From: Lentibacillus juripiscarius JCM 12147
GTDB lineage: Bacteria; Bacillota; Bacilli; Bacillales_D; Amphibacillaceae
Reading direction: 5' to 3'
DNA: 55,909 bases
Assembly (NCBI GenBank): GCA_001311805.1
Contig: BBCA01000017.1
Coordinates: 1 to 55,909 of the forward strand
How positions within the stretch are numbered: the first letter of the stretch is position 1; each line of letters starts with the position of its first letter. This document shows positions 26,390 to 52,900 of the stretch, one piece after another. Under the pieces are notes generated by a model, which searched no databases, was not told where the DNA came from, and saw only the letters and a program-made list of their open reading frames with translations. A program made the translations under genes and the position numbers.

Positions 26390-26838
26390 TTAATCTTCTG
26401 TTGGAACAAAATATTGACTTTTGCGATAGGCCACCGCTTCCATCGTAGCAATTAACCCTTCATCGCTTTCTATTTCTACTTTATACCACCCTAATTTATG
26501 GTTCTTCTTCTCTTCTATTGCTGTTGCTTGGAGGCAACTTCCTTTCTTCCCAGCTTTCATATAGTTAATAGTAGTTGATAGGCCTACAGCTGTTTTACCA
26601 TAAGAGTTGCAGGCAGAAGCAAAACATAATCAGCAATGGCAAATATAATTGCTCCATGCACTGTACCATGTGAATTTAGCATATAGTCTTTCACATTCAG
26701 TTTTGCAACTGCCTTCCCCTCGCTAATTTTGACTAATTTAATTCCTAAAAAACGAGCATATGGTTCATTTTCCATCACATCAAAGATTTCCGATTTGTAC
26801 CGCTCGTGCATTTCACTTTCATCAATTACATGTTTCAA
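26390..26838 (-). CDS. paaI: PaaI-type hotdog acyl-CoA thioesterase, one frameshift
   Basis: About 149 residues. The N-terminal half is intact: ENEPYARFLGIKLVKISEGK and the hotdog active-site helix NSHGTVHGAIIFAIADY. One base is lost near 26620; the corrected second half reads GLSTTINYMKAGKKGSCLQA and continues to TAA 26392-26390. PaaI-type enzymes hydrolyse dead-end CoA esters of the phenylacetate pathway and free trapped CoA. It is the last gene of a minus-strand operon with a second hotdog protein, an enoyl-CoA hydratase and a flavoprotein reductase. Confidence 0.75.
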
Positions 26839-26864
26839 GGTACCTCCCCCCCGATGTTCATAGG

Positions 26865-27248
26865 TTAAGACAGCTGCCTTCCAATGTGTTCCTTTGGCAA
26901 AATAACTTGTTTAATTTTCCCTTCACCAATTTTCCCTTTCTCATTGTTAACAACAACCTGGCTCATAATATAATTCCTTCGCATGTCCTCAATTGTTGCG
27001 ATAATCTCCAGTTGCGCTTTTTCTCCTGAAGGAGCAATATGTTTCAATTGTACGGCGGCTCCCATACCCTCTTCATCTTGTTCTAAGTACGGAAGGATTA
27101 ACTTCCTGGAAGCCCATTCCATGTGATACAACATGGATACTGTGGAATAGGCGCGGTGCACAACTTCCCCATTAAACTGCGCAAACATATCTTCTGTTAC
27201 CTTGACTGTAATGCAAGCTTGATCCCCAATCTGGAGTCCCGGTTTCAT
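26865..27248 (-). CDS. FlK-like hotdog thioesterase
   Basis: Intact, 127 residues. The fluoroacetyl-CoA thioesterase (FlK) family triad is visible: Thr in RAYSTVSMLYHME, Glu in HMEWASRKL, and His in VQLKHIAPSGEKAQ. Members hydrolyse small or unusual acyl-CoAs. It is placed 22 bases after an enoyl-CoA hydratase and 26 before paaI, so it probably detoxifies a CoA thioester side product of aromatic degradation. The substrate is not determinable from sequence. Confidence 0.75.
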   Translation of the reverse strand: MKPGLQIGDQACITVKVTEDMFAQFNGEVVHRAYSTVSMLYHMEWASRKLILPYLEQDEEGMGAAVQLKHIAPSGEKAQLEIIATIEDMRRNYIMSQVVVNNEKGKIGEGKIKQVILPKEHIGRQLS

Positions 27249-27270
27249 TTGCTGACCACCCTCTTATCAT

Positions 27271-28044
27271 TTATTTACCCTGAAAGTTTGCAGGCCGTTT
27301 TTCGTTAAAAGCAGTTACCGCCTCAACCCGATCTTTCGTCGGGATAATCACTTCATACGCCTTCGATTCGATTGCCAAACCGGTATGGATATCAACATCA
27401 CTTCCATGGTTGATTGCATATTTGGCTTGTGTGACCGCTAATGGCCCGTTTACCATTATTTCGTTTGCAAGAGAATCGCCTGTTCCATTAACTCGTCTTT
27501 CCTGGTAACACCATTAAGGATTCCAAGTTCTTTTGCATGATCCGCTCCTATTTTGCGTGCCGTTAAGATTAGTTCTTTTGCATAGGCAGATCCAATCAGA
27601 TTGTCAGGCGCTGTGTGCCGCCGCCTCCGGGAATGATTGCCCACTTAACTTCCGTCAACCCCATCTGTGCATGATCAGCGGCCAGTCGCAAATCACATGC
27701 TAATGCCAGCTCAAAGCCGCCCCCCAGAGCATATCCGTTAATGGCAGCAATCGTTGGCTGTGGCAATTCCTCAATCAAGTTAAATACTTGCCGAATTTTA
27801 TTGACATTGCGCCGTACTTCCCTTTCGGTTAAGTGTTTCCTCTCTTTTAAATCTGCCCCAGCGCTGAAAGCCTTCTCACCGGCACCAACAAAATGATTGC
27901 CCTGATACCATGATCCAACCGGATTTCCTCAACTACTTCCTGCAGCTGTTCCAGCATTTCATAATCAAACACATTTAAGACATCCGGACGGTTTAATGTA
28001 ATGGTAGCGAGCGTCCCGTCAACGGACTTTCTGATTCTTCCCAT
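27271..28044 (-). CDS. Enoyl-CoA hydratase/isomerase, frameshifted
   Basis: About 258 residues of a crotonase-fold protein: [36 protein letters not shown], the oxyanion-hole segment [20 protein letters not shown], and [19 protein letters not shown]. Both usual hydratase Glu positions appear present (GFELA; GLTEVKW). ATG 28044 follows GGAGGATCG. Shifts occur near 27885, 27600 and 27460. It is the third crotonase of the PAA region, besides paaF and paaG, so one of them may replace the missing hydratase half of PaaZ. Confidence 0.8.
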
Positions 28045-28077
28045 TAGTCGATCCTCCATCTTTGTTTTATTTTGTAT

Positions 28078-50291: not shown

Positions 50292-51407
50292 TATAATCTC
50301 TCCTTTCCTTCATATATTTTGATTTGTTCTTGTATATTTTGAGGAGCCTCTTCATACATCTTTTTGAGGAACATCGAGATTTTTTGAGGTTCTTCTTTCC
50401 ACATTTCCTTAATTGCGTCTTTTATTTGCGCTTTTGTATCTTCAATAATTTCATTTTCTTTTTCTTCCGACCACAAACCCTTTGCTGTTAAAAAAATTCC
50501 GCATGCGGATTAAACAGTCACGTTTTTCCATCTTTCTAAAACTTTATTTTCCCGATAACGCTTTGGATCATCTGACATTGTATGTGGACCATATCTAAAG
50601 GTAATTGTTTCAATTAACACAGGGCCATTACCGGCAAGTGCATATTCACGCGCTTCTTTTACTGCACAATAGATTGCTAAAGGATCCATACCATCAACTT
50701 GAATCCCCCGGTATTCCAGCTGAAACAGCTTTTTGTGCTAATGTTTTTGATTTTGTTTGTTTTGATCTTGGAGTAGAAATTCCGTAACCATTATTTTGAA
50801 CAATGAAGAGTGCTGGTGCATTGTAAGCTCCCGCAAAGTTAATTCCTTCATAGAAATCACCTTGTGAAGTACCACCATCACCTATATATGTCATAACAAC
50901 ATTATTCCTGTTACGTTTTTTAAAACCTAATGCAACTCCTGCTGCCTGTGTATATTGAGCACCAATAATAACTTGTGCGGGCATTGCAGCAAAATCATGT
51001 GGAAACACGTTTCCTGACATATAGCCTTTGTACCATAAAAATGCCTGTTTTAACGGCATCCCATGTTGCACAAGTGGTGGGAAATCACGATAAGTTGGTA
51101 GTAAGTAGTCCCCTTCTCCTAATGCATATTGACTAGCTAACTGACTTGCTTCTTGTCCCCCAGAAGGAGCATAGTTTCCTAATTGCCCTTGGCGATTTAA
51201 AATAGTTACTCTTTCGTCATAGGTTCTTCCCCATACGAGTCTTTCCATTAACTCAACTAATTGATTGTCAGTTAAATCGGGCATTAAATTAGAGTCAACT
51301 ACTTTCCCATCTTCATCTAAAACTTGATACATAGGAAAGTTATTTTCAACCTTATTGATTTGCGAATCAAAATCAAATGCTCCAGCTTTTTTTCTTAGTA
51401 ATTTCAT
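50291..51407 (-). CDS. 2-oxo acid dehydrogenase E1 component, alpha subunit, frameshifted
   Basis: About 372 residues. [40 protein letters not shown] and the thiamine-diphosphate motif [20 protein letters not shown], then [20 protein letters not shown], mark the family. Shifts near 50700 and 50515 separate the last third ([20 protein letters not shown]; the phosphorylation-loop region). ATG 51407 follows AGAAAGG. First gene of the operon. It resembles pyruvate/branched-chain E1; a role on phenylpyruvate is inferred from the linked phenylalanine dehydrogenase and paa genes. Confidence 0.88.
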
Positions 51408-51419
51408 ACACAACCTTTC

Positions 51420-51990
51420 TTCTTAATAATTCAGCTAAAAATAAAGCGCTTTAATACGCATCCCAAAAATGCTATTATTGAAAATAAAATATATTCATAC
51501 CTTTGGCCATTAAAAATACCTGGCTACAAGAATTTTAAATAACCTAACTTATAATCGTTGCAGCAGCTCCTTAATAAAACCTTTGTAGCAAACGATAGTA
51601 AAACGCTTTCACCTAAATGTTAAAGCTTTTCTGAAATGTAGTAAAATAGAATAAATTTATTCAGTTATCAAATAATTTTATTTGACAAAGTATTCAACCT
51701 GAATCTTGAGTTTTAGTCTTAACTTGAAGTTATGCTTTATTTTTAAGGCAGGAAAGTCCTTATCTACATTACTGTGAGTTCGAACGTTAGAAGTATGGGT
51801 AACTGTTTTGTGTAGTTCTAAACTTATCGGGGAAACAGCCTTTCAAATATGGTTCAACCCACCGGTTTAAGGAATATCCAAAATGACCGTTAACCAGTAC
51901 CTTTATGTGTATATCTAATTAATATCAGGTATAAAAACAAGTTAGTACTAGTTTACTAGGCTTAAAAAGCCTAAACATACTATACAAGGG
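51420..51990. promoter_or_regulatory. Divergent regulatory region between the E1-alpha operon and lysR
   Basis: About 570 AT-rich bases with no gene. A 7-bp inverted repeat (TAGGCTT / AAGCCTA, 51957-51973) lies directly ahead of the lysR ribosome site and may serve autoregulation. No sigma-54 (-24/-12) element of the kind driving bkd operons was found by eye. Confidence 0.45.
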
Positions 51991-51999
51991 GAATTGAGA

Positions 52000-52900
52000 A
52001 TGGATATTAGACAACTGCGTTATTTCATCGCAATTGCAAATGCTAAGAGTTATTCAATAGCAGCTAAGAGCCTGTTTGTAACACAACCCGCTTTAAGCTG
52101 GACAATACAAAAATTAGAAAGTGACTTGAATACAAAGTTGTTTTATAATGTAGATTATGGTATCGAGCTAACAGAGAATGGAAAGTTTCTTTACGAGCAT
52201 GGAAAAAGTATTGTAAAAGATATCGATGATTTAACGAGACTAATCCGGGAACATGAACATAATATGGAAGGATCTCTAAAAATTGGCTTAACCGTTCTTT
52301 TCTCAATACGTTATATGAAAACAATTTCTGAATTTATATCCTCCCATTCCAATTTTGAAATTACACTAATTCAAAAAGGTTCGAAACGAATACAAGAAAT
52401 GGTTTCAACCGGAGAACTAGATTTGGGGTTAGTTTCTTTTCCAATATATTACGACAATCTTGAGGTGGAACCTTGTGCTAAACAGTTTCCATCATATGAT
52501 GTATCTGTAGTTGTCAGCAATGAAAATCCGCTTTCTACAAGAAGTAACCTAAAGTTAGAAGATTTGAAATCAGAAAAGTTCAGTATTCTATCAGGTGATT
52601 TTATATTGGGGAATATCCTTTATCATAGGTGTAAAGAAATTGGATTTGAACCAAGTGTTGTTTTTAAAAACGAGAACTGGGAGGTCCTCTTAGAAAAATA
52701 TTGCAGTTACTAACAATGTAACAATATTACCAACGGAACTTGCAAAAGTTGCTAAATTCAAAGATGTTAAATGGATAAAACTTAAAGATAAAATTGGTCA
52801 AATAGATATCGGCTTTGTAAAAAGAAAACATGAAAAACTATCTCATTTAAATGTACAATTTTGCCAAGCAATTAAACAAGGAATTCAAGCTCAACAATAA
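52000..52900 (+). CDS. LysR-family transcriptional regulator, one frameshift
   Basis: About 299 residues. The N-terminal helix-turn-helix is MDIRQLRYFIAIANAKSYSI, then AAKSLFVTQPALSWTIQKLE; a LysR substrate domain follows (LKIGLTVLFSIRYMKTISEF, and GELDLGLVSFPIYYDNLEVE). The frame shifts near 52705; the remainder VTILPTELAKVAKFKDVKWI ends at TAA 52898-52900. ATG 52000 follows AAGGGGAATTGAG. Divergent position makes it the likely activator of the phenylalanine dehydrogenase/2-oxo acid dehydrogenase operon, with a catabolite such as phenylalanine or phenylpyruvate as coinducer. Confidence 0.85.

Follow-up and report, generated by a model that had tools for sequence, protein, structure and literature searches.

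A putative phenylpyruvate dehydrogenase operon facing the phenylacetate gene cluster of Lentibacillus juripiscarius

How could a bacterium pass phenylalanine into the phenylacetate (paa) pathway without first making free phenylacetate? This question is raised by a contig of Lentibacillus juripiscarius JCM 12147 (BBCA01000017.1), which was analyzed over its whole stretch of 55,909 nucleotides, referred to as the window. It encodes E1alpha, E1beta, a lipoyl E2 and E3 together, i.e., a complete 2-oxo acid dehydrogenase gene set, in one minus-strand operon with a phenylalanine-dehydrogenase-like (PheDH-like) gene and an NSS transporter gene. The operon runs from 51413 down to 42983, with a divergent lysR gene at 51988-52897, and stands tail-to-tail with the plus-strand paa operon that ends at 42262. 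An earlier reading of the same letters, here called the original prediction, had described all of these genes and their convergence on paaABCD-F-G-H-J, as we find them; its inventory missed paaK, the aldehyde dehydrogenase, EthD-like, PaaX-like and FlK-like genes, and a ptb/buk remnant. With a probability of roughly 70%, we consider the best reading to be that the operon specifies a PheDH-fed complex making phenylacetyl-CoA.

According to this reading, the NSS transporter would import phenylalanine, the PheDH-like enzyme would oxidize it to phenylpyruvate with formation of NADH, and E1-E2-E3 would decarboxylate phenylpyruvate onto CoA. In the window genome, phenylacetyl-CoA would then go straight to PaaABC, and free phenylacetate would still enter via PaaK. 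The phenylpyruvate activity of the complex is suggested by gene linkage. In the translation of E1alpha a GDGG...NN motif can be read directly, which we take to be the thiamine motif; the roles of DKTV and DHRVIDG in E2 and of CLNAGC in E3 are assigned on the same presumption.

PheDH serves as our label for the clade of the window's amino acid dehydrogenase. Its copy in Oceanobacillus halotolerans, to which the window copy is 81-85% identical, carries the ELFV dehydrogenase domains (Pfam PF02812 and PF00208). A comparison of pocket residues places the window enzyme with the PheDH-like type and not with leucine dehydrogenase (LeuDH). TGTD is present in all 44 distinct PheDH-like relatives, and four of four LeuDH proteins differ ([12 protein letters not shown]). 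The second motif was matched in 28 of the 44, the other 16 falling off the search pattern; among the LeuDH proteins, one of four reads GGVINVAD and the rest are off the pattern. Presumably, Gly/Leu in PheDH versus Ala/Val in LeuDH at two motif positions set the specificity for phenylalanine versus leucine; a literature search for a paper on these two positions found none. The compared LeuDH proteins sit in ptb-LeuDH-buk-E3-E1a-E1b-E2 operons. On its motifs, the window enzyme is predicted to convert phenylalanine to phenylpyruvate and NADH.

The lineage of the window's complex is termed W type. Its closest full operon copy is found in O. halotolerans (locus L001; E1beta 94%), and the order E1-E2-E3, PheDH, NSS with divergent lysR is kept in both species. 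O. halotolerans also carries a separate canonical bkd operon (L098: ptb-LeuDH-buk-E3-E1a-E1b-E2) and a pyruvate dehydrogenase (PDH) operon (L099); the W complex is a third complex in this genome, distinct from housekeeping PDH and bkd. In a tree of 57 E1beta sequences, in which a long-branch warning applies elsewhere, the window, O. halotolerans, a Neobacillus protein and metagenomic proteins form the W clade (9 rows, support 99/95). This clade joins a sister operon type (11 rows, 100/99) and then four PDH-like sequences (15 rows, 98/97), three of which are named Enterococcus, Vagococcus, and Carnobacterium; it stands apart from Bacillaceae PDH and from bkd. We rejected an identity as housekeeping PDH because of the separate PDH operon in O. 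halotolerans and the separate E1beta clade, and an identity as plain bkd because the E1beta lies outside the bkd clade and O. halotolerans has a bkd operon with its own LeuDH.

W-type complexes are rare. A survey of 159 genomes from the O. halotolerans family found W-type E1beta (93%) in one; five other matches at E <= 1e-158 are at 70%, including the sister type in genomes G143 and G144. Among the best 120 of 610 proteins found with the E1beta, 13 are at 85% or above and the rest at 78% or below. Sister-type E1beta was identified at 84-100% in G143, G144, G066, and G061. The sister operon (L100:8416-18790, L126) has no PheDH and consists of E1-E2-E3, ptb, buk and a divergent lysR gene, to which L100 adds a PTS_EIIC_2-like gene and a gene for a PanE-like dehydrogenase; perhaps it serves another 2-oxo or hydroxy acid. 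In O. halotolerans, the NSS gene is followed by a dCache chemoreceptor gene (L001:12922-14778), possibly for chemotaxis to the amino acid.

The position of W in the tree, nested with PDH of lactic acid bacteria, raises the possibility of an accessory pyruvate dehydrogenase that lies beside PheDH by chance. Among PDB entries, pyruvate dehydrogenase comes closest to both E1 subunits (scores of 479 and 524 bits for the O. halotolerans proteins; 3duf is the best solved relative of the window E1beta), and this solved enzyme is presumably that of Geobacillus stearothermophilus. The O. halotolerans E1alpha moreover passes the cut-off of TIGR03181, the NCBI model for pyruvate dehydrogenase E1alpha; two B-type proteins (see below) that were tried pass it as well, so that the model cannot tell W or B type from PDH. 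However, O. halotolerans has another PDH operon, the PheDH operon order is conserved in two species, and the W E1alpha is one active-site-loop residue shorter: the O. halotolerans protein is without one glycine of the PDH loop and has the loop length of bkd and B type (one W, one sister, three PDH, four bkd, and three B-type sequences compared). This shortening fits a changed substrate and is no proof of specificity. We regard the accessory pyruvate dehydrogenase as very improbable.

Most of the linkage evidence comes from a different lineage. Of the first five PheDH loci, four (L002-L005) pair the dehydrogenase with a complex of B type, whose E1beta forms one clade of 26 tree rows (100/98), all of them picked through PheDH. 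Within the family, PheDH was found at 42 places in 34 genomes, or 40 places in 32 genomes once the LeuDH-like G153 and G062 are dropped; flanking sequence was obtained for all 40 (G001 as L001). B-type E1beta (E <= 1e-112) gave 34 places, of which 32 in 31 genomes were kept. The two dropped (G158, G070; 52-53% identity) have crotonase- and thiolase-like genes beside them instead of PheDH. At 22 of the 32 places PheDH is no more than 5 kb away, and at 15 paaA is no more than 15 kb away; seven places have both this near and two have neither. One of these two adjoins genes for an FlK-like thioesterase and an antiporter-family protein (G149), the other shares its stretch with hpaB (G153). Three PheDH genomes of the family, G001, G143, and G144, are without B type. 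An exact replacement of B by W type in these genomes was rejected as a rule, since G143 and G144 have the sister complex away from PheDH, and since G061 and G066 have it, too.

In 12 genomes (G057, G098-G108), E2 accompanies PheDH but E1 does not, with hpaB nearby in 11 of the genomes, and E1alpha-E1beta without E2 lie in the paa cluster (L055, L060, L062, L063, L065-L067, L070-L072, L075, and L080 versus L118-L125, L077, L082, L087, and L090). One complex seems to be split over two catabolic clusters there.

The linkage extends to 299 genomes sampled evenly across the order of Shouchella shacheensis (G005), here called Bacillales. B-type E1beta (E <= 1e-120) occurs at 125 places in 123 genomes, PheDH (E <= 1e-76) at 118 places in 117 genomes, and paaA (E <= 1e-60) in 126 genomes. 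Of the 118 PheDH places, 105 lie at most 6 kb from B-type E1beta; in each of these the two genes share a strand, and the median gap is 1565 bases. Conversely, 105 of the 125 E1beta places have PheDH within this distance. paaA is present in 116 of the 123 B-type genomes, and B-type E1beta in 116 of the 126 paaA genomes; at 92 of the 125 places the two are within 25 kb of each other. Eight paaA genomes have neither E1beta nor PheDH, and seven of the 117 PheDH genomes are without paaA. Fisher P values for the linkage are very small in the family and in the order, though they ignore relatedness.

Twenty loci of the order were chosen and read. Among ten with PheDH beside E1beta, seven show paa-cluster genes (one only a paaY-like gene) in the stretch read, and in six of these an FlK-like gene immediately precedes PheDH; contig ends interrupt two others. 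Of eight E1beta loci without PheDH nearby, four are near genes for FAH-type hydrolases (one also near hpaB), one is near paaX and paaA-C, and one has no informative neighbor (L144); the remaining two, L145 and L146, are taken up below. Two PheDH places had been counted as non-adjacent: at L147 the complex is in fact there, split into pieces, and only L148 lacks it as a neighbor.

The original prediction had further supposed that the PaaK step is bypassed. This is not supported for the window genome, where the ligase is not replaced, because paaK is present beside paaA. Within the family, PaaK (TIGR02155, E <= 1e-60) occurs in 13 of the 159 genomes, all of them with paaA. It is absent in 15 of the 28 paaA genomes, every one of which has B-type E1beta; the five paaA genomes without B-type E1beta all have PaaK. 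A direct protein search gave no close PaaK match in the 15 genomes, with no match at E <= 1e-5 in 11 and remote ones only in four (25-27% identity, E 5e-7 to 4e-6), and found its two positive controls. Twelve of the 15 bear neighboring handles (G098-G109) and may belong to one genus, which would leave few independent events; another ligase or incomplete assembly may also account for such genomes.

What the operon may have done originally is suggested by the interval that separates E3 from PheDH. In O. halotolerans, this interval of 2139 bases is filled by intact ptb and buk (Pfam PTA_PTB and Acetate_kinase). The corresponding window interval, about 660 bases long, contains fragments of both genes that lie in several frames, are interrupted by stops, and lack the middle part. 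The older function of the operon was probably the conversion of phenylalanine to phenylacetate plus ATP, as the O. halotolerans operon keeps ptb-buk and its genome gave no paaA match at E <= 1e-60. The operon would first have worked with ptb and buk, turning acyl-CoA into free acid and ATP, which would still be possible in O. halotolerans. In the simplest reading, with one genome on each side, these exit genes fell into decay where the CoA ester can be consumed through paa.

It is conceivable that the operon still makes phenylacetate for excretion, with or without ATP gain, and that the neighboring paa genes are fed only by external phenylacetate via PaaK. The paaK gene of the window, the O. 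halotolerans operon in a genome without a paaA match, and the FlK-like thioesterase genes nearby agree with this. We think it unlikely, given that ptb-buk is decayed in the window and that B-type E1beta is found in all 15 PaaK-less paaA genomes.

Besides the likeness to pyruvate dehydrogenase and the limited meaning of the loop, several observations weigh against a phenylpyruvate dehydrogenase. A comparison of the window's amino acid dehydrogenase with the PDB puts leucine dehydrogenases and a Glu/Leu/Phe/Val dehydrogenase first (E 1e-65 to 1e-59); a tryptophan dehydrogenase follows at 2e-50, and a PheDH, presumably the Rhodococcus enzyme, at 3e-30 only. The best 120 of its 3219 relatives are variously named Leu/Phe/Val, phenylalanine, or leucine dehydrogenase by their sources. 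The W type lies beside PheDH in two genomes only, which are the W contexts read, and its sister has ptb-buk and, in L100, the PanE-like gene, but no PheDH. O. halotolerans carries the W operon, yet gave no paaA match. Some B-type places adjoin ptb-buk (L146) or a LeuDH-like gene (L145). Locus L146 (4600-19901, G204) has two B-type E1 gene pairs close together, one of them being the pair beside ptb-buk.

Part of this evidence would suit a branched-chain or broad 2-oxo acid dehydrogenase, with a broad or leucine-type dehydrogenase as its neighbor and with ptb-buk marking a bkd-like operon: L001 has ptb-buk as bkd operons do, leucine dehydrogenases are closest among solved proteins, and L145 and L146 show B-type complexes in such company. 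Nevertheless, a complete bkd operon that includes LeuDH, ptb and buk of its own is present separately in O. halotolerans, the dehydrogenase motif is unlike that of LeuDH, and PheDH-like genes and B-type complexes accompany paa across the order. ptb-buk itself is also compatible with phenylacetyl-CoA. A branched-chain or broad complex appears doubtful to us. The bkd operon resembles the window operon in combining an amino acid dehydrogenase with a complex and ptb-buk, and differs in E1 clade, in LeuDH, and in gene order.

For the phenylpyruvate dehydrogenase, the link between PheDH, complex and paa is strong for B type and weaker for the W lineage of the window, because few genomes carry the latter; a strict tie of the W operon to paa is not supported. 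The original prediction of a complex dedicated to the phenylacetate pathway was borne out in the PheDH-clade motif, in the distinction of the complex from PDH and bkd, and in the order-wide linkage. Its dedication to paa was not, as O. halotolerans combines the operon with intact ptb-buk and no paaA match. The survey of co-occurrence that the prediction had proposed likewise returned both the B-type linkage throughout the order and an E1-E3 operon in a genome without a paaA match, which is in part the case it had named as speaking against itself.

In many other genomes of the order, the same arrangement is realized by the B-type lineage beside PheDH. We lean slightly towards the view that two branches of 2-oxo acid dehydrogenases were each recruited beside PheDH as phenylpyruvate dehydrogenase. 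One would be the widespread B type, paa-tied in most carriers and making PaaK dispensable in some. The other would be the rare W type from the PDH clade, which would first have yielded ATP via ptb-buk and lost this exit in Lentibacillus on joining paa.

A search of open-licence PMC papers found none on this operon in Bacillales. PglB/PglC of Streptomyces pristinaespiralis are PDH-like E1 subunits for which the same reaction, phenylpyruvate to phenylacetyl-CoA, is proposed (PMC7089894, PMC10685826). That system is biosynthetic and serves phenylglycine, whereas the window operon would be catabolic and includes PheDH, E2, and E3. Another report describes 2-oxoacid:ferredoxin oxidoreductases of Blautia and Clostridium that convert phenylpyruvate to phenylacetyl-CoA, with ptb/buk homologues at many loci (PMC13290082); unlike E1-E2-E3, these are ferredoxin-linked and anaerobic.

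The features of the window are collected in Table 1. Frame changes split many genes across the whole window, which looks like sequencing error rather than decay. In the paa operon, the epoxidase genes paaA-D are present. No PaaE reductase was found among the part of the window's open reading frames (ORFs) that was scanned; the ferredoxin and the pyridine-nucleotide reductase flanking the paa genes may supply electrons in its place. The aldehyde dehydrogenase may carry out the aldehyde step of PaaZ; StyD models are among the matches, below cut-off, and an identity as phenylacetaldehyde dehydrogenase was considered. The EthD-family gene recurs in the paa clusters of relatives at 69-81% identity.

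Table 1. Genes and remnants of the window, with coordinates on the unmended sequence (no frame split corrected).
Feature	Position	Strand	Remarks
E1alpha, 2-oxo acid dehydrogenase complex (W type)	50294..51413	-	frame-split; TIGR03181 on fragment 273 bits, below cut-off 411
E1beta (W type)	49315..50283	-	322/322 compared residues identical to P0001 (Lentibacillus juripiscarius)
E2 acyltransferase with lipoyl domain	47962..49285	-	frame-split; DKTV and DHRVIDG read directly
E3 dihydrolipoyl dehydrogenase	46554..47954	-	frame-split; CLNAGC read directly
Decayed ptb (phosphotransbutyrylase-like) and buk (butyrate-kinase-like) remnants	45915..46504	-	ptb pieces E 3.8e-9; buk pieces E 1.1e-27
PheDH-like amino acid dehydrogenase	44726..45891	-	one frame split; TGTDMGT, GGLIQVAD
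NSS-family sodium-dependent transporter	42983..44371	-	NF037979 above cut-off; 87% to O. halotolerans operon copy
lysR-family regulator, divergent from E1alpha	51988..52897	+	frame-split
paaK, phenylacetate-CoA ligase, divergent from paaA	32146..33440	-	TIGR02155 575 bits on ORF fragment, cut-off 646; frame change near end
paaA, phenylacetyl-CoA epoxidase subunit	33696..34682	+	two ORFs; second ORF 278.8 bits, just under cut-off 280
paaB, paaC, paaD	34705..36409	+	each above own NCBIfam cut-off
EthD-family gene between paaD and paaF	36427..36732	+	
paaF- and paaG-like enoyl-CoA hydratase/isomerase genes	36725..38282	+	below equivalog cut-offs
Aldehyde dehydrogenase between paaG and paaH	38301..39825	+	frame-split; L003 relative below cut-offs of all 20 families listed
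paaH- and paaJ-like genes	39848..41914	+	paaJ frame-split
Ferredoxin, last gene of paa operon	41966..42262	+	
PaaX-like regulator, N-terminal part	31335..31775	-	
FlK-like acyl-CoA thioesterase	26865..27248	-	relative directly before PheDH in other genomes
Pyridine-nucleotide reductase	28353..29138		

Elsewhere in the window, two catalase-like genes, named by eye from their translations, lie side by side in opposite orientation (8923-10418, minus strand; 10900-12579, plus strand). A DUF4317 protein (25210-26196) precedes the paa region, and a Fic-domain protein (53229-53951) adjoins the lysR gene. A plasmid search with the window gave no match.

If the phenylpyruvate dehydrogenase reading is true, these bacteria would convert phenylalanine to phenylacetyl-CoA by a testable, NAD-linked route that needs neither a decarboxylase nor phenylacetaldehyde nor an ATP-dependent ligase. 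In many genomes of the order, genes modelled as pyruvate dehydrogenase E1 alpha would serve an aromatic amino acid pathway, and there would be a reason why some paa clusters have no PaaK. On an evolutionary scale, the reading proposes a switch from phenylacetate excretion with ATP gain to full ring degradation.

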